Part shown: one piece after another, positions 21,101-32,888 of the stretch
Layout: each line of letters starts with the position of its first letter
Numbering within the stretch: position 1 is the first letter of the stretch
Source: Anaerolineaceae bacterium
Lineage (GTDB): Bacteria > Chloroflexota > Anaerolineae > Anaerolineales > Anaerolineaceae
Length of the DNA: 45,400 bases
Assembly (NCBI GenBank): GCA_002702705.1
Contig: PABH01000060.1
Coordinates: 1 to 45,400, forward strand
Direction: 5' to 3'
Translations under genes and position numbers: made by a program
The notes under the pieces: generated by a model
Database searches by the model: none
Seen by the model: only the letters and a program-made list of their open reading frames with translations
What the model was told of the DNA's origin: nothing

Positions 21101-21164
21101 CACGTAAAGAAATTAATTCTTTAAAGGTGGGTCTATCAAAAAAAAACGGATTCACCCATAAAAC

Positions 21165-21272
21165 GGCAAGAGGCGTTGAAACAATATGTGTCCGCGAAAG
21201 GGAGGGGATTCCCTGAATAAGCGGGATTTGGGCACCTGACATATTGTTGAGCCAGTGGTGCAACCGGCTGCC
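21165..21272 (+). ncRNA. Cyclic-di-GMP-II riboswitch aptamer, copy 1
   Basis: The class II core is present: TTTGGGCACCTGAC, then GCCAGTGGTGCAACCGG, close to the known clostridial TTGGGCACTTGAC...AGTAGTGCAACCGA. CAATATGT (21182-21189) pairs perfectly with ACATATTG (21239-21246). GCAC and GTGC can form the pseudoknot. TCCGC and GCGGGA frame an optional inserted stem. GGCAAG (21165-21170) pairs with CTGCC (21268-21272) with one bulge as P1. Class II aptamers bind cyclic di-GMP selectively. The 3' strand overlaps the terminator arm, so the RNA can be either aptamer or terminator. Confidence 0.92.
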
Positions 21273-21303
21273 AATTTGGTATTTCAGTCGGTTTTTTCTT
21301 TTT
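21263..21303 (+). terminator. Riboswitch-controlled leader terminator, copy 1
   Basis: ACCGGCTG (21263-21270) pairs with CAGTCGGT (21285-21292) with a single G-U, followed by TTTTTCTTTTT. The 5' arm is the conserved ACCGG ligand-site segment plus the P1 3' strand of the aptamer. Ligand-stabilised aptamer should therefore block the terminator and allow read-through (ON switch). Polarity is inferred from this overlap. Confidence 0.85.
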
Positions 21304-21439: not shown

Positions 21440-24400
21440 ATGAATAAATCAATTTTTACTAAAGGTATATATGTTTTCTTAAGTTTATTGTTGGCATTGG
21501 GTGCCTTTACTGCTATGCCAAGTGGGGCGGTAAGTGCTGCTAACTTGGATGTATGCGCATCAGGTTGTACCTATTCAACCATTCAATCTGCAATCAATGC
21601 TGCATCAGATAACGATACAGTTTATGTCCACGCCGGTACCTATTATGAAGCGTTAAGCATTACCAAAACGATTTCACTGGTTGGTGAGGATCGTGATCTG
21701 GTAATCATTGATACTGATAGTAGTGCAGGCACCAGTTATGGTGTTAGTGTGCGTGCTGATGGGGTGGTTATAAGTGACTTAACAGTTGTTGGACCAAACA
21801 ACTATACAGGTGGAACACGACCTGGTAATTATGGAATCAAAGTTAGCAAAGTTGACGATGTTACGGACACCTCTTTTACTATTTCCAATGTTAAGATCAG
21901 AGATTCTTATCGTTCCAATCTTGATTTGAATGGAATTACCAGTGGATTAATCGATGGTGTGATTGTAGAAAATGCCGTTTATGGAGCTGGGATTGGTATA
22001 TCCGATTCGAGTAATATTACAGTACAAAACATTACCACGACTGGGAATGCCTGGGGTGGTTTGGCTGTTATGGCAGGCGGAAACTGGTATCCTCCTGGAG
22101 GTTCCTATAATGTAACTTTAACAGGGACCAATAGTTTTTCAGAAACAAACAAGGTTTATACGGAAAACGAAGCTGATCCCACAAAACCCGTTGTCAACTT
22201 TACCGCGGAAGGTTTTGGTTTTATTGTTCGAAATCCTATTCGACCTTATCATACCTGGTATCAAATCACCGCAGCTGATGCCGTTAGTTTTGCATTGGGA
22301 CTTGCTAATCCTGAACAATCTGTTGTTCAACGGCTATCAGATGGTGCTTTTATATTAGATGAAGGCATGTCCATTCAAGCAGCAATTGACGCGGCAGCGG
22401 ATGGGGATACCGTTTTTGTCCAAGATGGCACCTACAATGAATATTTACGCATCAATAAACCGCTAACCTTAAGTGGTGAATCCAAAACTGGTGTCATTAT
22501 CGACCCGCAGGACACAGGTGGTTATGGTATCGCTGCTACTGCTGACGGACTGGTTTTTGAAAACTTTACATTACGAAATGCGGAAACCTATGGGTTAAAA
22601 ATCAGTAATAGCACAAACGTGGTGGTTCAAAATGTGATTGTACAAGCCAGTGGAAACACCAATGTTGATTTAAATGGTGTTAATCATGCCACTGTAGATG
22701 CAGTTGAAGCCTATACCGCTTCCTATGGGAATGGCTTCAGCATCACCGATTCAAATGATATTCTCATAAGTAATTCCATCTCGGAAGGCAACCATTTCAC
22801 AACTTTCTCAGCTGGTGTTATGGTAGCGGCTTCTGGTGCGGCTTATCCAGGTGGTTCTGATAATGTCGTGTTTGTTAACAACGATTTTCGAGAACCGACG
22901 CATATTTACACGGAACGAAATGCTACTTATGAAATTACCAATCTTGATCCCGGTAATTATGATTACGTATTAAAAACATCATTGGGACTTGGAGAATCTT
23001 ATTATGTCTCATTCGCTGAAGCGAAGGCAGCAGCAGTTCTGTATGCTGATGCTTTACTCTCAGGAGATCTGAGCTCTTTCTCAATCAAATCCGTTTCTTT
23101 GGCTACCTTTTATGTTGATCCTGACCTTAAGATACAGACCGCGGTGAATGCAGCCGAAGCTGGAGAAACCGTTCGTGTAGCGGGTGGCACCTACGTTGAA
23201 GATGTTGTGATTGACAAAGCGTTAAACGTTTTTGGTCCAAACGCTGGTGTAAATCCTAATACAGATACACGGAACTCTGAAGCAATCATCTTACTGGAAG
23301 TGCCTGGTGACACAGTGGATGATACCTTGATGTGGTATCTGGAAGCAGACGGAATTACCATTGATGGGTTTTTATTTGACGGTGATAATCCGGCTTTAAC
23401 CAGTGAGGTAGATGTACGAGGATCAAATGTTGATGCAGGAATCGGTATTGCTGCTTTTGATGGCGTAGGAGAAATTCGTATTGAAAATAACATCCTAAAG
23501 AATTTTTCGTTTGCTTCAATTTATATGTATAACGGTGATAATGTAGCGACATCAGAGAACTATATTCAAAAGAACTGGATTGACAATCTCAATCCAGATA
23601 CCTGGGGTATTGGAATCTTGGTATACAATAGTTTTTATGTTGATATTCAAGATAACGTTATTACCCGTGGTCGCGTAGGTATTCAAACCGGTAATTATCA
23701 ACGGCCAAATCCTGGTTCGACAGCCAGTATTAAGAACAATACGATTGAAGTAACCCGGAGAGGTTTATTCTATAACCTCATGTCTGGAACTAGTACACCA
23801 TTTGAAGTATCTGACAACACATTTACAGCGCTTCCTGCAACGAATGTTCAAGACGGTATCTTGATTTCCTCCATCAATGTTGCTGTTGAAACAAACTTCC
23901 AAAACAACAATATCACCGGTTTTGATTACGGTATCAATTTCTGGAATGATCCCACATCCAATTTTGTGACCGTCAATGGTGGTGTGATTGATCAATGTGA
24001 TTATGGGGTTTTTGCGAACAATTTTGATGGGTATTCATCCAATGGAAATTCGAGTGTTGTTCAAATCCAAGATATCACTATTCAAAACTCAACCAATGCG
24101 GCAGTATATGTCAAAGATAATGAACTGAATACAAATGCCGCTACCATTCAACTAAATGTTTTGTCTGGAAACCAGTTAATCAACAACCCGGTTGATTTCT
24201 TAATCGAAGGTCTTGATGCGACATTGACGCTGGATGAAACGCTGACCGGGCCGTTTGTATGGAATATTGATGGCGCATTAATTCAACCAGCTATTGATGA
24301 AACATATGCTGGTGACACCTTTGTCATTTTAGCTGGTGAATACGAGCAGAATTTCACGGTAAATAAATACCTGAAAATCTATGGCGAAGGCAATGGCGAT

Positions 24401-26275
24401 GATCCTGCCGACAACACTATTCTTAAAAAATTGGTTAACAGTGCAGTTGTAACAGTGTCTGCTTCCGGTCTTTCCGAGGTCGAACCATTACTTTTACAAG
24501 ATTTACGTATTGAACCGGTTGGTGTGTATGGTTTGAATTTAGGTAATCTTGCATACTTAAAATTGGATAACGTGAAAGTAATTGGTAGTGCGGATACAGA
24601 TTTTAATGAAAACGAATCCTGTCTTAAAGTCGCCACAACAGCCGATGTGAAATATTTGGATGTTGTTAATTCTGCATTTGATGGCTGCGATTATGGTTGG
24701 TATATAGCAAAAGCGGTAACAGTTGGTGAAGCCAGTACGCTGCAGTATGTAAATGTTTTCAATACCACCTTTAATAACAATGATTATAAGGGCGCGTATA
24801 TCGAAAAACTTTCCGACGCAGTTTTCGAAAACGTTTCAGTTTTGGATAACGGCAGCACGGGGTTCTGGAATAACGACTGGAATGCAGGTATTGACGTTAA
24901 TTTAAAAAATGGTGATTATCAAAACCTCACCTTCAATAACATCATTGTTGATGGAAATGGGCTTGGTTATAAAGAAGGAACTGGTCTTCTGGTAAAAGCT
25001 CGTGATGATGGATCATATGCCGCCGTTCCAGCTACATTGGATAATGTACTTATTACCAACAGCACCTTTACCGGCAATGAACGTGGTATCCGCTTGGGTG
25101 AACCCGGCAAATTAAACGCTGGCCCGACCAATGTGGTGATCAACTTCAACCGTATTTTTGGAAACGAACAAACTTACACCGGTACCGATGGTTCTGCTTA
25201 TGGCGGGTTGGTTAATCAATCCGTAGCCGCTGTGAGTGCTGAAAACAACTGGTTTGGCTGCAACGCTGGCCCAGAAACCACGGGTTGTGACGCCGTTGCA
25301 GTTAGCACCGGCGCTGGCGCTGTTGACGCGGATCCATGGATTGTTTTGAGCCTGACCGCTGATCCAACCGTGCTCGAACCCGGCATGTCTGCTGATTTGG
25401 AAGCCAACTTGGTAATGAACTCGGCTGGCGTTTCAACGGCTGCCGATGGTTACATTCCCCAGGGTCTCTTGGTCAGTTTCACAGCCCCTGATGGCGGTAC
25501 CGTGAACCCAACCAGCGGCCTGACGGTTAACAGTGCTGTTTCCAGCGTTTTCACTGCGCCTGATATGCATGGTGATTACCAGGTCTGTGCTGCCGTGGAT
25601 AACGAACTGCTTTGCCCGATTGTGCCTGTGGTTGGCCCCGGTGCAGTGGATGATGCCTATTCCACACCCGAAGATACAACCCTGGTGGTAGCGGCCCCTG
25701 GTGTTTTAACCAATGACACCGGCATTGAGACGCTTCCTTATGCGGTTGCTCTGCTCGTAGAGCCCCAACACGGACAATTAACCTTAAACGCGGATGGATC
25801 CTTCACTTATGTTCCGGATGCAGGTTTTGTGGGTGATGATACCTTTGAATACCAGGTCGTTACCCATCCCAACGATGCCAAAACCGGTTGGTCTGATGAA
25901 GCAATTGTGACCATTACAGTTACCCCTGTAAACAAGGTTCCAGTGGCTGTGGCGGATGCCTACGATGCGGTCCAAAACATCACGCTTGAAATTGAAACTG
26001 CTGAAGGTGTTTTGGTCAACGATACGGATGCGGATGTGGATGATTCATTGGAAGCGGTTTTGGTAACGGATGTTAGCAATGGTACCTTAACCTTAAACGC
26101 AGATGGTTCATTTACATACGTTCCGAATGTCAATTATGTTGGTTTTGACAGTTTTACCTACTATGCGACAGACGGTGAAGCAAACAGCGCTCCGGTGACA
26201 GTGACCATTACTGTTGCGCCTGGAATCCCTGTTACCAGTGGGGTTCAGATTTACCTGCCATTTATTGTCCGGTAG
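21440..26275 (+). CDS. Giant secreted right-handed beta-helix surface protein 1
   Basis: This 1611-residue protein has a cleavable signal peptide (about residues 1-33). Four pectin-lyase-like beta-helix segments each open with the same unit, IQ.AI..A..GDTV.V..G.Y.E, near residues 48, 310, 564 and 947. An NWFGCNAGP motif near 1271 is typical of such helices. A possible Ig-like stretch follows, then two tandem cadherin/Ig-like 'tandem-95' domains (from about 1401 and 1505, each with LTLNADGSFTYVP). The extreme C terminus is IYLPFIVR, with no membrane helix or LPXTG. No catalytic pectinase residues are evident, so an adhesin or matrix role is more likely than an enzyme. It is controlled by the c-di-GMP-II leader upstream. 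The site before the ATG is weak (GGGG). Confidence 0.9.
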   Translation: MNKSIFTKGIYVFLSLLLALGAFTAMPSGAVSAANLDVCASGCTYSTIQSAINAASDNDTVYVHAGTYYEALSITKTISLVGEDRDLVIIDTDSSAGTSYGVSVRADGVVISDLTVVGPNNYTGGTRPGNYGIKVSKVDDVTDTSFTISNVKIRDSYRSNLDLNGITSGLIDGVIVENAVYGAGIGISDSSNITVQNITTTGNAWGGLAVMAGGNWYPPGGSYNVTLTGTNSFSETNKVYTENEADPTKPVVNFTAEGFGFIVRNPIRPYHTWYQITAADAVSFALGLANPEQSVVQRLSDGAFILDEGMSIQAAIDAAADGDTVFVQDGTYNEYLRINKPLTLSGESKTGVIIDPQDTGGYGIAATADGLVFENFTLRNAETYGLKISNSTNVVVQNVIVQASGNTNVDLNGVNHATVDAVEAYTASYGNGFSITDSNDILISNSISEGNHFTTFSAGVMVAASGAAYPGGSDNVVFVNNDFREPTHIYTERNATYEITNLDPGNYDYVLKTSLGLGESYYVSFAEAKAAAVLYADALLSGDLSSFSIKSVSLATFYVDPDLKIQTAVNAAEAGETVRVAGGTYVEDVVIDKALNVFGPNAGVNPNTDTRNSEAIILLEVPGDTVDDTLMWYLEADGITIDGFLFDGDNPALTSEVDVRGSNVDAGIGIAAFDGVGEIRIENNILKNFSFASIYMYNGDNVATSENYIQKNWIDNLNPDTWGIGILVYNSFYVDIQDNVITRGRVGIQTGNYQRPNPGSTASIKNNTIEVTRRGLFYNLMSGTSTPFEVSDNTFTALPATNVQDGILISSINVAVETNFQNNNITGFDYGINFWNDPTSNFVTVNGGVIDQCDYGVFANNFDGYSSNGNSSVVQIQDITIQNSTNAAVYVKDNELNTNAATIQLNVLSGNQLINNPVDFLIEGLDATLTLDETLTGPFVWNIDGALIQPAIDETYAGDTFVILAGEYEQNFTVNKYLKIYGEGNGDDPADNTILKKLVNSAVVTVSASGLSEVEPLLLQDLRIEPVGVYGLNLGNLAYLKLDNVKVIGSADTDFNENESCLKVATTADVKYLDVVNSAFDGCDYGWYIAKAVTVGEASTLQYVNVFNTTFNNNDYKGAYIEKLSDAVFENVSVLDNGSTGFWNNDWNAGIDVNLKNGDYQNLTFNNIIVDGNGLGYKEGTGLLVKARDDGSYAAVPATLDNVLITNSTFTGNERGIRLGEPGKLNAGPTNVVINFNRIFGNEQTYTGTDGSAYGGLVNQSVAAVSAENNWFGCNAGPETTGCDAVAVSTGAGAVDADPWIVLSLTADPTVLEPGMSADLEANLVMNSAGVSTAADGYIPQGLLVSFTAPDGGTVNPTSGLTVNSAVSSVFTAPDMHGDYQVCAAVDNELLCPIVPVVGPGAVDDAYSTPEDTTLVVAAPGVLTNDTGIETLPYAVALLVEPQHGQLTLNADGSFTYVPDAGFVGDDTFEYQVVTHPNDAKTGWSDEAIVTITVTPVNKVPVAVADAYDAVQNITLEIETAEGVLVNDTDADVDDSLEAVLVTDVSNGTLTLNADGSFTYVPNVNYVGFDSFTYYATDGEANSAPVTVTITVAPGIPVTSGVQIYLPFIVR

Positions 26276-26614: not shown

Positions 26615-26729
26615 AATTTACCCAAAGTGTCTCAAAAAACAAGGAGGTTTTTTGAAGTGGGAAAAAGGCAATTTTTTCAAACTAAATTGACAAATCCGTA
26701 AACGGTTCCGGGGTATGGGGAGGTATTTA

Positions 26730-29700
26730 ATGGTGAGAGAAAATGGATTCAAAAGAAATTCTTTTGTTATTTGTTTGTTGGTGATTGTTTGTTTTATTTT
26801 TGTTTTACCGGGGAGTGTGGTATTGGCAGAAACCAGGGAGGTTTGTCCCGTTGACTGTGCTTATACCACCATTCAATCCGCGATTAATGCTGCTGTGGAT
26901 GGTGATGTAATCTCTGTAAAAAATGGGATTTATGCCGAGGTAATTTGGGTGAATAAACCAATCAGTTTGATTGGCGAATCGCGTGATGGGGTTATCATTG
27001 ATGCTTCTGGCCATACCGGGTATGCCATATCCGTTACTGCCAGTAATGTCATCTTAGGGTTTTTTACCGTACAAAATGGAAATGACTACGGAATAAAAAT
27101 TAGCGGTGTAAATAACTTTACCCTTCAGTATGTTACCGTGAACCAAATGGCGCGCAGCGGTGTCGATTTAAATGGGGTTGATACGGCTGTTTTGAATAAC
27201 ATTCGTTCTACCGGGTCGGTGGCAGGCGTGGGAATTGCCATTACGGATTCACAGAATATTGACTTGAACGACATTTTGACCTCGGGAAATGCCTGGGGTG
27301 GGATTGGCATTTATACCTTGGGTGAGTTTCATCCGGGTGGGGTGGATGGTGTTACGCTGACCGGTCTAAATACAATTCAGGAGAATCCGCCCATTTATGT
27401 TGAAATCGAAAACTTTGCTTCGCCAAGTGAACCATACCCGGTTACCAATCTGGATATGGGTGAATTTCGGTATCTGGTTACCAACAGCTCACAACCCAAT
27501 CTAAGTGTTTATTACACCACCTTTGTTCAGGCGCGGGCCACCATCTTGTTTGTTAGTGCACAAAATTTCGCAACCATCCAAGATGTAATAAGCGGCGATT
27601 ACCTTGTTTCACCTGGTTTAAAAATTCATGCTGCTGTGAAATTGGCAGCAGATAACAGCCGCATTTTTGCCTACAATGGTGAATATTTGGAACCACAAAT
27701 TTTGATCGATAAAAATATTACCATCACGGGTGAAAGCCAATCCGGCACGATTTTCAAACCACTTGATGATACGGAAGCCAGCGGGGATGCGGCCGGATGG
27801 TTTGTGGTGAATGACGGATTTGTATTCGATTTGAATAATGTTACCCTGGACGGTCTGGGGAAAAATATTCATCAGGCAATCCGCTCTTTTGGCAGCGGAA
27901 CGATTCAAAACGTGACATTCAAAAATATTTCTTATCCGGGTTACCAGGGTACGGCAGTAGCCAACCTTGGTCAAAATATGACGATTGCTAACAACACTTT
28001 CTTAAATATCGGCAGGACGGGCGTGCTTGTGTCGGGCCCCGGTATCGGCAATACCATCATTTCCGATAATGCCTATACCGGCAAAGGAAGCGGGGATTGG
28101 GTAGACTATGCCGTGGAAGTGGATGGTGGGGCAGTGGTTCTTTTGAAGGGCAATACCATCAGCGGAAACATTGGAGAAACTTTGGGCGGTTTAAGCTCGG
28201 CTGGGGTTTTGGTTACCACCCAAAATGGAACTGGTACAAGAGCCCAACTTTACGGAAATACTGTTCATGGTTGCACCGATGCCGTTCGGGTGGGGGTAGA
28301 CTCAACAGATACATCGGTTGTGGTAATGCACCAAAACGATTTTTCAGGGAATAGTAATGGCGTCTTTACCTATCACAGCCCCGTGGATGCAAGAATGAAC
28401 TGGTGGGGAGACTTAACTGGACCGAGCAGCGGGGATGGCGTATCGGAAGATGTCAATTATTCACCCTGGTTGGGTTTATTGCCCGCTACCACACCAATGA
28501 TCTTGCATACCGATGGCAATATCCAGGCCGCGATTGATGCCGCTGAGGCTGGTGATTCAATTTATGTGCACCCTGGTGTTTATAATGAAATAGCTGAAAA
28601 CCGTTATTTGTTTGATGGCAGCGGCCCCTACCAGTTTGGTTTATTTATTCCGGTCGATAAACCAAACCTCTCCATTGTAGGGGTAGACGATAATGGGTTA
28701 CCAGTATCCTCCTACTCAAGCGTGCTGGCCCAGGTGCAGTTAAATGCGACCAATGATTTTGGCCCCTCCGGTTTGTTTGTGGAAGCGGACCAAATTACCG
28801 TGTCCGGTTTGCAGCTTTCGCAGCATCCGGATTTTATCGGCAAAACCATTGAAGTTATTGGGAATGCGTTTACCCTACAGTACAGCCATGTTTTGGCTAA
28901 CCAGTCTACGGCTCTTGTTTTTAATGATTGGCGTTTTGATGAAGCCAGCGGAAGTTCGCACCTACAGGAGTATTCCATCAATCAGAACCGGATTGAAGAT
29001 GGCTTTATTGATCTTTACAATGGTGCGGGTTATTCCGGTCCTGTAACAGGTCGTTTGATGACCAATAACGTTTTTGATGGTTTCCCTCTCCAGCCAACCC
29101 TCCAATTTACGGGTTCGATTGCCAGTTCACCAATCTATGTTTATCCGGTGGGCGGTGCAATCATTTATGGAAATCAGTTTACTGATGCAGCAGAGCATAT
29201 CCTTGTGCGTGGTGATTATGATAACAGCCAGTTTAATTGGGCCGATTATTGGAATGAAAATATATTTGATCAGGCGGTGATGGTGGGAACAAACCCGCCG
29301 GAAAATATTCGTTCTTATGTAAATGGTCTATATCCCAACAGCCGGCGAATTGGATCCGTCATTCAGGCGGAGATTAATCATGCCCTGCCGGATGACACGG
29401 TTTTGGTGAAAGATGGGCTTTACGAAGAAAATTTGCTCATTAACCAAAACATTTCCCTGATTGGGCAGGGTGAAAACACAATTCTTTTAGCCCCCGAACT
29501 GATCCCAACATGTTTTGCGGTTACTAATCCAAATTACAATGCACACCCCGTGATTTGTATTCAGGCCGATCATGTTACCGTAGATCATTTCACTGTGGAT
29601 GGGGCAGGCCGTGGGAATAGCAATTATAAATTTATGGGGATTGCTTTTCAGAATGCGGGCGGAGCTGTGAAAAACACGGTCATTACCCGCATCAAATCCT

Positions 29701-31010
29701 CCCCAATCACAATGGATGATAATGGTTTGGCTTTGTTTGTTTATAACAACGATGGAACCAACCGCTCCTTTACGGTGGATCAGGTAACCATTGAGGATTT
29801 CCAGAAAAACGCGATGGCCATCAGTGCGTTAGCGGATACCCCCCTGGCGGTCAATATCACCAACAATCATGTTACCGGACAGGGGCATACCAGCCTGGTT
29901 GTGCAAAACGGTATTCAGGTCTGGGGGGATCTATTAACCGGAACGATTGAAGGCAACAGCGTGGATGATATTGGTTTTATCAGCACCAATCCGGATAACA
30001 GAGTTGTTGCCACCAGCATCTTAAATTATTATGCCGATGTGGATGTGCTGCGGAATACGGTGACCGAGGCACAAATCGGCCTGTATGTTTATGACGGCAG
30101 CGGACGGTATATCGACAATCAGTTTGAGATTTTTAAGGTCGGTTATTCCGGTTTTGGCATGATCCTCACCGATCCGCCAGGCGCAGTGCCTTCACCCAGT
30201 GTTGTAAACACGTTGGATGAAAAATCAAGACTGCCGAATGAAGGCGTGAAAACTGAAGGCGAAAATATCATCTTTGCAGAAAACAACCAGGTTTTATTTA
30301 ATGGCACAGATAATACGGGGACCATTGGGATAGATGCAGAAGCGGGACATGGTGTGAAAGATGTTAACGTAAATATCAATGCTAATACCGTGCGCGGGTT
30401 TGATTTTGGCATCACCCTGCTGCAGTGCGGTGGGACAACCTGTACGGATAGTGTATTTACCCATCTTCAGGCCTTGTGCAACCTCATCTCGGAAAATAAC
30501 AAGGGCATGTATTCAAATGTGACCGCTTTGGAAATGTTCGCTCCCTATAACTGGTGGGGTGACCCCAGCGGGCCGTATCATCCCAGTTTTAACCCGGATG
30601 GCCTGGGTGACAGCGTGACCGGATTGATCGATTTTACACCCTGGCTGGAAGAACCGGTCTGTATGGTCAATTTTCCGCCATTGGCACGTGGTGATGTGTA
30701 TAAAGATGCTGTGCAGAACGTTACCTATCAAACTGCCGCACCCGGCGTATTGGCGAATGATATGGATTTGAACGATGACCCCATAACCGCGGTGTTGGTG
30801 GATGACGTTCAGTTTGGTGCATTAACGCTCAACGCTGATGGTTCGTTTACCTATATTCCGGAAGTTAACTTTATTGGCGTTGACAGTTTTACCTATGCTG
30901 CCACCGATGGCGTGTTGAACAGTGAACCCGTCACGGTTACCATCACTGTTTTGCCCGGCATCCCCATTACCAGCGGCGGGACGGTTTATTTGCCAGTTAT
31001 TATGCGTTAA
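26730..31010 (+). CDS. Giant secreted right-handed beta-helix surface protein 2
   Basis: This is the 1426-residue paralogue of the 21440 gene. I start at the ATG at 26730, six bases after GGGGAGG; the in-frame ATG at 26715 overlaps that site. The signal peptide covers about residues 1-33. Beta-helix opening units recur near residues 47, 299, 597 and 877, and NWWGD.(T/S)GP motifs close two helical blocks (near 555 and 1275). One tandem-95 cadherin/Ig-like domain (from about 1320, with LTLNADGSFTYIP) precedes the C-terminal VYLPVIMR. An adhesin or extracellular-matrix function is inferred from architecture and from its c-di-GMP-II leader. It is GC-richer than the first half of gene 1. Confidence 0.9.
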   Translation: MVRENGFKRNSFVICLLVIVCFIFVLPGSVVLAETREVCPVDCAYTTIQSAINAAVDGDVISVKNGIYAEVIWVNKPISLIGESRDGVIIDASGHTGYAISVTASNVILGFFTVQNGNDYGIKISGVNNFTLQYVTVNQMARSGVDLNGVDTAVLNNIRSTGSVAGVGIAITDSQNIDLNDILTSGNAWGGIGIYTLGEFHPGGVDGVTLTGLNTIQENPPIYVEIENFASPSEPYPVTNLDMGEFRYLVTNSSQPNLSVYYTTFVQARATILFVSAQNFATIQDVISGDYLVSPGLKIHAAVKLAADNSRIFAYNGEYLEPQILIDKNITITGESQSGTIFKPLDDTEASGDAAGWFVVNDGFVFDLNNVTLDGLGKNIHQAIRSFGSGTIQNVTFKNISYPGYQGTAVANLGQNMTIANNTFLNIGRTGVLVSGPGIGNTIISDNAYTGKGSGDWVDYAVEVDGGAVVLLKGNTISGNIGETLGGLSSAGVLVTTQNGTGTRAQLYGNTVHGCTDAVRVGVDSTDTSVVVMHQNDFSGNSNGVFTYHSPVDARMNWWGDLTGPSSGDGVSEDVNYSPWLGLLPATTPMILHTDGNIQAAIDAAEAGDSIYVHPGVYNEIAENRYLFDGSGPYQFGLFIPVDKPNLSIVGVDDNGLPVSSYSSVLAQVQLNATNDFGPSGLFVEADQITVSGLQLSQHPDFIGKTIEVIGNAFTLQYSHVLANQSTALVFNDWRFDEASGSSHLQEYSINQNRIEDGFIDLYNGAGYSGPVTGRLMTNNVFDGFPLQPTLQFTGSIASSPIYVYPVGGAIIYGNQFTDAAEHILVRGDYDNSQFNWADYWNENIFDQAVMVGTNPPENIRSYVNGLYPNSRRIGSVIQAEINHALPDDTVLVKDGLYEENLLINQNISLIGQGENTILLAPELIPTCFAVTNPNYNAHPVICIQADHVTVDHFTVDGAGRGNSNYKFMGIAFQNAGGAVKNTVITRIKSSPITMDDNGLALFVYNNDGTNRSFTVDQVTIEDFQKNAMAISALADTPLAVNITNNHVTGQGHTSLVVQNGIQVWGDLLTGTIEGNSVDDIGFISTNPDNRVVATSILNYYADVDVLRNTVTEAQIGLYVYDGSGRYIDNQFEIFKVGYSGFGMILTDPPGAVPSPSVVNTLDEKSRLPNEGVKTEGENIIFAENNQVLFNGTDNTGTIGIDAEAGHGVKDVNVNINANTVRGFDFGITLLQCGGTTCTDSVFTHLQALCNLISENNKGMYSNVTALEMFAPYNWWGDPSGPYHPSFNPDGLGDSVTGLIDFTPWLEEPVCMVNFPPLARGDVYKDAVQNVTYQTAAPGVLANDMDLNDDPITAVLVDDVQFGALTLNADGSFTYIPEVNFIGVDSFTYAATDGVLNSEPVTVTITVLPGIPITSGGTVYLPVIMR

Positions 31011-31079: not shown

Positions 31080-31775
31080 TTAATAAATCGGGGTTGCGAT
31101 AACGAAGGTGCGTCCCCAGGAATAATTGCCGTCTTTTTCCAAACAGGTTTGGAATGTGAGATGATGTTCGCCGGTGTAGACCTGGTAAAACAACTGGGTG
31201 GCGGTCAGGCGTTCATTGGTTTCGAGATCAATAAAATCACTGTAGGGGCTGGTGGGCTCCAGGGCTTGGAACTGGCGGATGCTTTCGATGCGGTAGGCCT
31301 TGGTGCTGCCATCTCCAAGAATGATATCTACTTCCTGCCCAATTTCGAGATCATAAAATTTTGCGCCGGCGTGGGTGTTATGTGCCAACAAACCGGTGGT
31401 GCCAAAATTGGTTGCTGCCGCAAACTGCGTGATCGTATTGGGTGCCGAACTGATGTATCCGGCATTTCCGGCAGGCTGCTGAACAACCGGCATGGCCAAC
31501 ACATCTTCCACGTACACCCCAACCAATTGATCTGAAACGCCATTGGTGACTGAGTTTACAAACAGATCAAACGGATCGGTTTCGGCGGGTGGATTTTTTT
31601 CAGCGGAACTGGTGCCATTGACCAATGCAGGTAAAAATACCGAAAAACCGGAATTGGGTTCGTCACTGGATACGGCGATTTGCTGAATATTTTCAGCGGA
31701 TACCGGAAGCCAACCAGCCATCAGAATGATGGCGCTTACAAATAAGATTGAGGTAAAAAAATACAGTCGTTTCAT
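31080..31775 (-). CDS. Secreted sortase-like transpeptidase
   Basis: This 231-residue protein has an N-terminal signal or anchor helix (residues 4-27). The C-terminal half fits the sortase fold. GLLAHNTHAG supplies the catalytic His132, LTFQTC the catalytic Cys211, and WGRTFVIAT the Arg222. Sortases cut sorting signals and attach proteins to the cell surface, or act as housekeeping transpeptidases. The Cys context (TCLEK) is unusual and the class is unclear, so activity needs testing. Residues 45-52 (SVFLPALV) resemble the YLP tag of neighbouring surface proteins. AAAGGGC precedes the ATG. The leader contains two tandem c-di-GMP-I riboswitches, making regulation by the same second messenger as the beta-helix proteins likely. 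Confidence 0.78.
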   Translation of the reverse strand: MKRLYFFTSILFVSAIILMAGWLPVSAENIQQIAVSSDEPNSGFSVFLPALVNGTSSAEKNPPAETDPFDLFVNSVTNGVSDQLVGVYVEDVLAMPVVQQPAGNAGYISSAPNTITQFAAATNFGTTGLLAHNTHAGAKFYDLEIGQEVDIILGDGSTKAYRIESIRQFQALEPTSPYSDFIDLETNERLTATQLFYQVYTGEHHLTFQTCLEKDGNYSWGRTFVIATPIY

Positions 31776-31813
31776 CGTTTATGCCCTTTAAACTAACTTG
31801 GAGACAAGGGCTT

Positions 31814-31860
31814 CAAAAAACGAAGAAACCAACTGGAAATTTGTGAGCGAATAAGGTTTC
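31814..31860 (-). terminator. Candidate terminator after c-di-GMP-I copy A
   Basis: On the minus strand GAAACC (the 3' strand of the aptamer's P1) can pair with GGTTTC, followed by TTCGTTTTTT. The stem is short (6 bp) and the loop long, so this is tentative. If real, ligand-bound P1 would block it and give an ON response. Confidence 0.35.
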
Positions 31861-31957
31861 GGTAACCTGGCAGTCATATCCTTCCCTCCCCGGAAGGGTT
31901 TAGACCCATGGCTTTGCGTCCCCGGCTTTCACCGGGTTTGCCCTTGTCGATCCATAT
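31852..31957 (-). ncRNA. Cyclic-di-GMP-I (GEMM) riboswitch, gene-proximal copy A
   Basis: Read on the minus strand, the class I signature is clear. AGGGCAAACC is followed by a hairpin CCCGG-TGAAAG-CCGGG carrying a GAAA tetraloop, then GACGCAAAGCC. GGTCTAAACC next contains the tetraloop receptor, and the second helix CCTTCC/GGAAGG ends at GCCAGGTTACCG. P1 forms from GGATCG and CGAAACC with an internal bulge. The element sits between a leader terminator and the sortase-like gene. Confidence 0.93.
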
Positions 31958-32006
31958 AAAAATGAAAATTGCCGTGCAAGAAAAACACGGACCCGACTGA
32001 TCGAAT

Positions 32007-32035
32007 AAAAAAACCTGGAAAATTAATTTCCAGGT
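32007..32035 (-). terminator. Intrinsic terminator between the tandem c-di-GMP-I aptamers
   Basis: On the minus strand ACCTGGAAA and TTTCCAGGT pair perfectly (9 bp) around TTAAT and are followed by a run of Ts. It lies about 60 bases after aptamer B and just before aptamer A, as expected for an expression platform of the first switch. Confidence 0.85.
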
Positions 32036-32093
32036 CCGCTTTTTGCTTTGATGGCGATGAGTTTACTGTCTTCCATGACAGAGTCACGATTCG

Positions 32094-32195
32094 ATCAATT
32101 CGGCGGCCTGGCAGTCATAACCTCCCTCCCCGGAAGGTGTTAGACCCATAGCTTTGCGTCACCGGTTTTCACCGGGTTTGCCTTTATCGTTTGAT
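32094..32195 (-). ncRNA. Cyclic-di-GMP-I (GEMM) riboswitch, distal copy B
   Basis: On the minus strand: AAAGGCAAACCCGGTGAAAA, then CCGGTGACGCAAAGC, then GGGTCTAA and GGCCGCCGAA. The GAAA-capped hairpin, the CGCAAAGC segment and the second helix (CCTTCC/GGGAGG) match class I and copy A. P1 pairs ATCAA.CG with CG..TTGAT, a different sequence from copy A but the same shape. It is the first element of the leader transcript. Confidence 0.92.
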
Positions 32196-32221
32196 GTTAA
32201 TGTGCATCCTTGCTTGAAAAC

Positions 32222-32230
32222 AGTGTAGCA
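32222..32230 (-). promoter_or_regulatory. Extended -10 promoter for the sortase leader
   Basis: On the minus strand TGC directly precedes TACACT, an extended -10 arrangement. The predicted start near 32215 lies about 20 bases before aptamer B. No good -35 hexamer is visible. Confidence 0.5.
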
Positions 32231-32309
32231 CAAATCGGACAGTCTTGTTGTAAAGATGGCGTAAAAAGAGCGTAAATAAAAATGATACCGGAGAAAATAA
32301 AATGGATAG

Positions 32310-32390
32310 GTTGGGCAAGTCCAATCGATCAGATCGGTAATTTTCTAGATAAGATAGAATTTCACAGTGATACGACAGCCACGTCCCAAC
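32310..32390. repeat. 80-base GTTGGGC-ended repeat, copy 1
   Basis: The element runs from GTTGGGCAAG to ACGTCCCAAC with near-inverted ends. A second copy of the same length at 37911-37990 shares the ends and many interior positions (GATCGGT, ACAG, ATA). The rest of 32231-32639 holds the ACCACCAAGCACAC string shared with 18387 and GCGTGCCCAACAAA at 32472, but no gene. Confidence 0.55.
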
Positions 32391-32639
32391 AAAGAATTGA
32401 AAATAACCACCAAGCACACGAATTCACACGAAGAAAAAAATAAAAACCAACCTCACAGCGACTTGAACGCCGCGTGCCCAACAAAAAAATTCGCGACTGT
32501 CCTTCAAAGCCGGGCTTTTGTCGAGAGCGATTGTTGTCTGGGATCGAAACTTTGGCAACCTACTCCGAACGCATACGGAGAAAACAAAACCCGACTTTTG
32601 CATTAAAATGACAAAATTGCGGTATAATAACAAAACAAT

Positions 32640-32712
32640 GCCCTCGTAGCTCAATGGATAGAGTACCTGACTTCGAATCAGTTGGTTGGGGGTTCGAGTC
32701 CCTCCGGGGGCA
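32640..32712 (+). tRNA. tRNA-Arg (anticodon TCG)
   Basis: The cloverleaf is complete over 73 bases without encoded CCA. Acceptor GCCCTCG pairs with CGGGGGC. The D arm GCTC/GAGT encloses AATGGATA. The anticodon loop CTTCGAA gives TCG, reading CGA arginine codons. The T arm contains GGTTCGAGTCC. The outermost pair of the anticodon stem appears mismatched (C-U), leaving four good pairs. TATAAT at 32623-32628 may be its -10 box. Confidence 0.95.
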
Positions 32713-32718
32713 CAGTTG

Positions 32719-32797: not shown

Positions 32798-32888
32798 AAT
32801 CAGTTGGTTGGGGGTTTCCCCGTACCGAGGACAGGCGAGTAGTCCCTCCGGGGGCACAGTTGCACCGCTTGAAAAAGCGGTGTTTTTC
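32798..32888 (+). repeat. Damaged second copy of tRNA-Arg 3' half plus its terminator
   Basis: AATCAGTTGGTTGGGGGTT repeats tRNA positions 32676-32694 exactly, and TCCCTCCGGGGGCACAGTTG with the following hairpin repeats 32699 onward. Between them about 26 bases have replaced the CGAG of the T loop, so it cannot fold as a tRNA. It looks like the scar of a duplication or of integration at the tRNA 3' end. Confidence 0.8.

Follow-up and report, generated by a model that had tools for sequence, protein, structure and literature searches.

Tandem class I c-di-GMP aptamers in the leader of a sortase_YLP-family gene of Anaerolineae

Described systems and the leader of the window

Class I c-di-GMP aptamers, tandem class I leaders in front of surface genes and a family model for the sortase considered here are already known. 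In Bacillus thuringiensis, the Bc3-5 tandem precedes cspABCDE and is reported to give more stringent control (PMC4759541). In the Cd1 switch of Clostridioides difficile the terminator can coexist with the aptamer and the antiterminator takes an aptamer strand, which is an OFF layout, and in pilM, an ON switch, the terminator cannot form together with the aptamer (PMC9262584). C. difficile also uses class II ON switches for the sortase-dependent proteins CD630_28310 and CD630_32460 and a class I OFF switch for the protease ZmpI/PPEP-1 (PMC6366702, PMC6200980), and in a Geobacter aptamer the A20G change shifts selectivity from cGAMP to c-di-GMP (PMC6456294). The original prediction for the locus described below had called tandem class I aptamers uncommon; this does not agree with PMC12452182, which names c-di-GMP among just three riboswitch families that show a marked tendency to lie contiguously. 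The same prediction held that the association with a sortase is no described theme, and within the reach of open-access literature searches this stands, as no paper on class I riboswitches in front of a sortase gene, or on such an arrangement in Chloroflexota, was found.

We analysed a 45,400-nt stretch of DNA from an Anaerolineaceae bacterium (the window), the complete sequence of one of the 74 contigs that make up a 5.9-Mb genome. A cmscan search of the whole window (gathering scores of 59 for RF03167 and 35 for RF01051) returned two class I aptamers on one strand (Table 1), both of them full-length matches to RF03167 (c-di-GMP-I-GGC) above the cut-off, so that the tandem of class I copies, first proposed from the letters alone, holds with both covariance models. 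In the direction of transcription the distal aptamer comes first, then the terminator, the proximal aptamer and the sortase gene, with 83 nt between the end of the proximal aptamer and the gene start at 31775; aptamers and terminator lie within 31852-32230, and only the gene falls outside. Bases of the binding site and fold are kept in both copies, namely G20, the GACGCAAA junction, the GAAA loop and the CC before the 3' strand of P1 (alignments). The elements would make up a tandem riboswitch, with two same-strand aptamers before one gene, each with a platform of its own. The host very likely makes c-di-GMP, since its genome contains 40 GGDEF matches.

The gene behind the aptamers encodes a 231-aa product that scores 241.2 bits against NCBIfam NF053836.1 (sortase_YLP, putative sortase; cut-off 125) and 20.9 bits against Pfam Sortase PF04203, under the cut-off of 26.6, and that matched no PDB chain by sequence at E up to 1. 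The catalytic His-Cys-Arg residues H132, C211 and R222 are invariant across 38 relatives (alignment A1). When an AlphaFold2 model of the product (mean pLDDT of 87.5) was compared with the PDB by Foldseek, all 50 matches listed were sortases (best E of 4.3e-7, prob 1.00, query TM of 0.33-0.44). By profile, catalytic residues and modelled fold, the product belongs to the sortase_YLP family and the sortase superfamily, in line with the sortase-like gene originally proposed. Its nearest named relatives are found in the Chloroflexi MAGs HGW-Chloroflexi-10 and 44-23. The N terminus is signal-peptide-like by eye, and VFLP follows this segment at residue 46. Among 38 sortase_YLP members, 6 have a YLP/FLP-type motif within their first 95 residues and 12 have an IPxT motif there, so that 18 of the 38 (L041, L042 and L046, for example) carry one or the other soon after a signal-peptide-like start. 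These N-terminal motifs resemble the C-terminal motifs of secreted proteins and perhaps point to self-processing.

Elsewhere in the window (32640-32713 and 32798-32887), there is a tRNA-Arg(TCG), and behind it stand exact copies of the 3' part of the tRNA and of the hairpin next to it (47 nt and 19 nt), which look as they might after partial duplication or an old integration.

Table 1. Positions of the leader elements, the sortase gene and neighbouring features in the window
Feature	Position	Strand	Basis
Distal class I c-di-GMP aptamer (transcribed first)	32191-32098	-	RF03167 64.2 bits, E 5.1e-13; RF01051 74.5 bits
GATCGAAT, 5' half of 8-bp helix that would enclose the terminator	32096-32089	-	predicted fold
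Intrinsic terminator of distal copy	32037-32011	-	scan: 11 pairs then T run; no aptamer overlap
ATTCGATC, 3' half of the enclosing 8-bp helix	32006-31999	-	predicted fold
Proximal class I c-di-GMP aptamer	31951-31857	-	RF03167 70.2 bits, E 9.7e-15; RF01051 79.6 bits
Putative switch strand GACAAGGGC (P1 end, J1/2 ligand pocket, first two P2 bases)	31948-31940	-	complementarity
GAAACC, 3' edge of proximal aptamer	31860-31855	-	can pair with GGTTTC 31830-31825 (predicted folds)
GGTTTC, second possible anti-start segment	31830-31825	-	can also pair with start-codon region ATGAAACG (predicted folds)
Putative anti-start segment GCCCTTGTC	31811-31803	-	9/9 pairing with switch strand; first six bases alternatively pair with Shine-Dalgarno region
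AAAGGG, likely Shine-Dalgarno, 8 nt before ATG	31789-31784	-	sequence
sortase_YLP-family gene, 231 aa	31775-31080	-	NF053836.1, motifs, alignment A1, AlphaFold2, Foldseek
Class II c-di-GMP aptamer	21160-21277	+	RF03169 41.4 bits, cut-off 40 (just above)
Terminator hairpin and T run, 5' arm overlapping 3' end of class II aptamer	21262-21297	+	sequence; ON-type architecture
1611-aa repeat protein behind class II switch, N terminus secreted (by eye), C terminus GIPVTSGVQIYLPFIVR	21440-26275	+	
1431-aa beta-helix protein, C terminus GIPITSGGTVYLPVIMR, convergent with sortase	26715-31010	+	

Conservation of the leader with its sortase

A survey of sortase-gene leaders, which had been suggested together with the original prediction, found class I aptamers well beyond the window. 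In the family set of 147 genomes, the sortase query gave 104 matches in 66 genomes and RF01051 gave 145 matches in 57. When 1500 nt of the same strand were considered, one or more class I aptamers lay upstream of 23 of the 104 sortase matches, at 62-403 nt and with two copies in 11; no additional class I copies appeared when 20 family loci were rescanned at the gathering score. At the class level NF053836 was present in 21 of 396 genomes (25 matches), and 15 of the 20 rescanned loci had class I aptamers, in tandem in 12. For a third set, of named genomes, a covariance model was built from 32 of these aptamers and applied to the 700 nt upstream of the protein match; the set consists of the best 80 of 111 sortase relatives and shares many genomes with the earlier sets, with which it overlaps. 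Aptamers were found upstream in 50 of these best 80 of 111 and were in tandem in 42 of the 50, with gaps of 63-151 nt, and 92 of the 93 class I aptamers in 0.49 Mb of named loci sit directly upstream of a sortase. The sole one of the 93 to lie elsewhere is at L208 1553-1645. Sortase loci without a class I aptamer make up 30 of the best 80 of 111, and ten of these 30 lie beside a gene that we take to be yebC. Cultured carriers include Leptolinea tardivitalis and Leptolinea sp. HRD-7 with the tandem and Thermanaerothrix daxensis with one copy.

When the tandem label is mapped on a tree of 81 sortases, 10 changes account for its distribution, and shuffles require 27.0 on average. From this tree and the family, class and named-locus counts we conclude that the tandem arrangement is ancient and has mostly been retained. 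The aptamer-sortase pairing is no accident of this genome. Further to that, it is very unlikely that only one copy is functional and the other a decaying duplicate: the two window copies are alike in sequence (alignment A2), as they would be after a recent duplication, but both keep their binding-site bases, distal and proximal copies retain different platforms, and the tandem arrangement of the aptamer-led named sortases (42 of 50) extends across a deep protein tree.

Class I arrays of other kinds were also seen. A triple array in the same genome (L005 7034-7375, C51:101033-101373), with similar ones in G142, G129, G130, G136, G137 and G139, consists of two back-to-back aptamers that share 5-6 nt, with a third one following after 84-100 nt; in the L005 and L151-L153 arrays a hairpin with a T-rich tail comes next (by eye). 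The genes downstream vary, being malate-dehydrogenase-like (by eye) in G129 and G136, that of an 810-aa protein in G142 and an opposing gene in G000, and such an array is possibly a standalone c-di-GMP-binding RNA. At L154, L155 and L156 (genomes G110, G128 and G123) three class I aptamers stand head to tail with successive overlaps of 7-8 nt, and no common gene was seen by eye downstream of these three arrays.

Putative expression platforms of the two copies

We suggest, with moderate confidence, that this leader lets c-di-GMP switch the YLP-family sortase OFF at two levels. It had originally been proposed that tandem copies can sharpen or gate the response; the tandem behind this idea is real, and its main feature was missed, namely that the platforms appear to be two unlike elements and not two equal gate steps. 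The original observation is confirmed and its interpretation partly supported.

The terminator foreseen between the copies is present, with a stem that counts 11 pairs in our scan where 9 bp had been given; over 31700-32600 the scan returned 5 terminator-like sites, against 1.2 expected from shuffles. A platform scan by script, covering 38 aptamer-led loci (23 of them tandem) and run without a shuffle control, placed a terminator before the next aptamer in 21 of the 23 tandem loci, and in the remaining two (G378 and G421) a hairpin with an interrupted T run was found by eye. A chance hairpin between the copies is unlikely in view of these counts, taken as they are without a shuffle control, and so is a single platform shared by both copies, given a terminator between them in 21 of 23 tandem loci.

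In 20 of the 21 loci the distal terminator begins 13-62 nt past the aptamer end. By analogy the distal copy would be of the Cd1-like OFF type, a direction that is moderately supported. The 5' arm of the window terminator, CCTGG, is complementary to CCAGG in the 3' strand of the distal aptamer, with a duplex of -20.6 kcal/mol. Across all loci, antiterminator complementarity between aptamer and terminator arm scored 13.7, against 9.8 for shuffles and 13.1 for the leaders of other loci; because the latter score nearly as high, we regard this complementarity as weak evidence, and antiterminator pairing at fixed registers likewise lends weak support. It may be, then, that the distal and proximal platforms are opposite in sign, in which case sortase would be made only at mid-range c-di-GMP. 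The two platforms do differ in kind, the copies could differ in affinity, and the distal direction draws on the complementarity just described; however, the absence of aptamer overlap in 20 of the 21 distal terminators is the OFF layout of Cd1, and we consider mixed logic of this sort improbable.

The proximal platform points to translation. Complementarity over all nine positions of the switch strand was found downstream of 21 of 37 proximal copies, against 1.5% in shuffled leaders, and the distal copies, used as an internal control, reached 9/9 in 3 of 21, all U-rich, against 1.3% in shuffles. Among the named loci the counts were 23 of 50 proximal and 4 of 40 distal copies, with shuffles at 1.2-1.3%; the distal rate thus exceeds the shuffles, mostly through U-rich sites. 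The mechanism would not be universal, since full 9-mer pairing is absent from 16 of 37 proximal copies and from 27 of 50 in the named loci. Mean complementarity was 18.4 with a copy's own leader, 16.7 with other loci's leaders and 13.5 with shuffled ones, the advantage of own leaders being modest because the motif is conserved across loci.

Covariation was examined in leaders with GCYYTTRTC, a pattern that leaves the variable positions open. This motif, chosen after the paired sites had been viewed, occurs once in 32 of 71 unique proximal leaders, and the fitting aptamer strand is present in 32/32. The three variable positions give 96 pairs, of which 88 are Watson-Crick and 8 are G-U, against a mean of 57.1 and a maximum of 74 Watson-Crick pairs in 20000 shuffles, the count being inflated by related leaders. 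One variable position holds 17 G-C and 15 A-T pairs without exception, with changes on both sides. The aptamer strand alone is not diagnostic, since 15 of 39 leaders without the motif carry it as well. We consider the switch pairing well supported by covariation, and infer its direction of action: because the 9-mer pairs with a strand containing the ligand pocket, the aptamer should be able either to bind ligand or to form the switch helix, not both, which gives an expected sign of OFF with c-di-GMP.

In the 21 leaders with 9/9 pairing, predicted folds inspected by eye place the free 9-mer in a hairpin covering the Shine-Dalgarno sequence, the start codon or both; in the window, GCCCTT would pair with AAGGGC of the Shine-Dalgarno site. 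A simple fold model supports the direction in part, with the window as a clearer case. There, the start region has a predicted mean openness of 0.22 as long as the 9-mer is free, of 0.42 when it is held and of 0.79 when the switch helix is forced; over the 21 leaders, openness rises with the 9-mer held in 14 and the mean goes from 0.51 to 0.59. In the ligand-free state the switch fold is predicted to be the more stable one for 17 of 21 full-length transcripts (mean of -4.5 kcal/mol) and for 21/21 nascent ones, and in the window at -61.6 vs -57.6 kcal/mol, by a comparison that is biased to the switch fold, as its separate-domain fold bars aptamer-leader pairing and both ligand and tertiary structure lie outside the model. 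The same logic may apply to a further pairing, between GAAACC, GGTTTC and the start-codon region, which was recognised by eye in four leaders of the same genus (G000, G142, G140 and G143).

These last segments also bear on another reading, namely that both copies are transcriptional and both are turned ON by c-di-GMP, as in the triple-tandem Bc3-5. That system offers a precedent, since its class I copies likewise follow one another ahead of genes for surface proteins (PMC4759541), and the proximal copy of the window is followed by a weak stem, GAAACC/GGTTTC, and then TTCGTTTTTT, overlapping P1. An ON layout, however, needs terminator and aptamer to overlap, which the position of 20 of the 21 distal terminators does not provide, and after the proximal copy the script found a terminator-like hairpin in 14 of 38 loci, 3 of them overlapping the aptamer; at least three of the 14 (G064, G066 and G067) are the start-site hairpin itself. 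A proximal terminator made of GAAACC/GGTTTC and a T run was not found by the terminator scans of the window and is kept as a minor alternative. Two ON switches in series are, on balance, unlikely.

Under the two-level OFF switch that we favour, the first decision would fall at the distal copy. With c-di-GMP bound, this aptamer would keep its 3' strand from the 5' arm of the terminator, the terminator would form and transcription would stop; with no ligand, the aptamer 3' strand and the terminator arm would pair as an antiterminator. In transcripts that read through, the 5' strand of the proximal copy would be either part of the ligand-bound aptamer or paired with the 9-mer. Ligand binding would leave the 9-mer free to close the hairpin over the Shine-Dalgarno sequence and/or the start codon and so block translation, and in the ligand-free state the 9-mer would be held by the aptamer strand, with the start site open.

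Ligand choice, neighbouring surface proteins and known systems

Position 20, the base before P2 (assigned from PMC6274999 and a mapping made in this analysis), is G in both window copies (alignment A2), and neither carries the A that marks GEMM-Ib (3',3'-cGAMP) aptamers. Read as distal,proximal, the 42 tandem loci comprise 20 with G,G (as in the window), 16 with A,G, 2 with G,A and one each with unread,A, unread,G, C,C and G,C; single-copy leaders have G in 8. The A of cGAMP-binding relatives thus stands, unexpectedly, in one copy of 18-19 of the 42 tandems. None of the 42 has A in both copies, which is not significant (about one expected, by hand). It could be that in Anaerolineae this leader works as a gate with two levels and two messengers, of which the distal copy reads 3',3'-cGAMP and the proximal copy c-di-GMP, and that the window has the c-di-GMP-only form; if so, two cyclic dinucleotides would be sensed before sortase is made. 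We hold this to be quite unlikely. A search limited to GGDEF synthases found no Hypr-type GGDEF in two mixed-aptamer genomes (85% and 80% complete), where the usual Asp occupies the selectivity position in 11 of the 13 GGDEF matches and the remaining 2 are degenerate. Given this absence, a plainer reading than two ligands is that A at position 20 may only tune affinity.

The window also carries a class II switch in front of the gene for the 1611-aa protein (Table 1). At 34 class II loci, the script found a terminator in 28, and 28/28 overlap the aptamer. Because its terminator overlaps the aptamer end, the class II switch of the window should be ON, and c-di-GMP should accordingly turn on the 1611-aa protein gene. 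As this layout is opposite to the class I layout, high c-di-GMP would raise the surface protein and lower the sortase, a direction unexpected for an enzyme that only attaches adhesins.

From their C-terminal YLP/IPVT motifs, the large secreted 1611-aa and 1431-aa proteins, the genes of which both converge on that of the sortase, are, at a guess, candidate sortase substrates. The C-terminal YLP pattern has 18 matches in the same genome, against 8 for scrambled YPL and 4 for the reversed pattern, and this excess is suggestive, not specific. At another place in this genome (L016, C27:49997-50102), a class II aptamer precedes an ABC polysaccharide exporter-like operon (by eye), the last protein of which ends in IYLPMLIK.

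Substrates were also sought beside other sortases, at eight loci (L143-L150) chosen since a class II aptamer faces the sortase match. The sortase there is another paralogue, beside yebC in 8/8, and none of the class I aptamers listed lies upstream of it, so that these loci yield no substrates for the sortase that class I aptamers precede. They share a recurrent arrangement of a class II aptamer with facing genes for a response regulator (7/8), in some cases an IPVTG-ending surface protein (3/8), and mostly a second sortase-like protein with TCWP (7/8).

To our knowledge, surface attachment of Anaerolineae has been little studied. With this locus the sortase itself, not only sortase substrates, joins the genes behind c-di-GMP riboswitches, and sortase plus class I leader forms a conserved theme within a bacterial class. 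The leader would also be a tandem riboswitch in which each copy apparently controls a stage of expression of its own, transcription or translation, and the covarying pairing shows which bases to mutate.

Compared with described systems, the leader resembles Bc3-5 of B. thuringiensis (PMC4759541) in having serial class I aptamers, each with its own platform, before cell-surface genes. It differs in that Bc3-5 consists of three like transcriptional ON elements before surface proteins, whereas here two unlike elements precede a sortase, the second platform looks translational and both copies look OFF-type. With Cd1 of C. difficile (PMC9262584, PMC6366702) it shares a terminator outside the aptamer and a predicted antiterminator that uses an aptamer strand, in an OFF arrangement; Cd1 is a single copy before the flagellar flgB operon. 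Some related leaders are like Geobacter GEMM-Ib (PMC6456294) in their tandem GEMM-I arrangement and in the A at the selectivity position of one copy, unlike the window, with G in both copies, and with no Hypr-type GGDEF in the two genomes tested. The gene is by score a member of NF053836 sortase_YLP, an entry that is silent on regulation, and the leader is the new part. Finally, if the predicted signs hold, the combination of a class II ON switch for surface proteins with a class I OFF switch for an enzyme acting on them is similar to that of C. difficile (PMC6366702, PMC6200980), where the enzyme is a protein-releasing protease, whereas here it is a sortase behind two class I copies in another phylum. 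As the same ON/OFF pattern goes with a protease in C. difficile, the sortase may serve some purpose other than simple anchoring.
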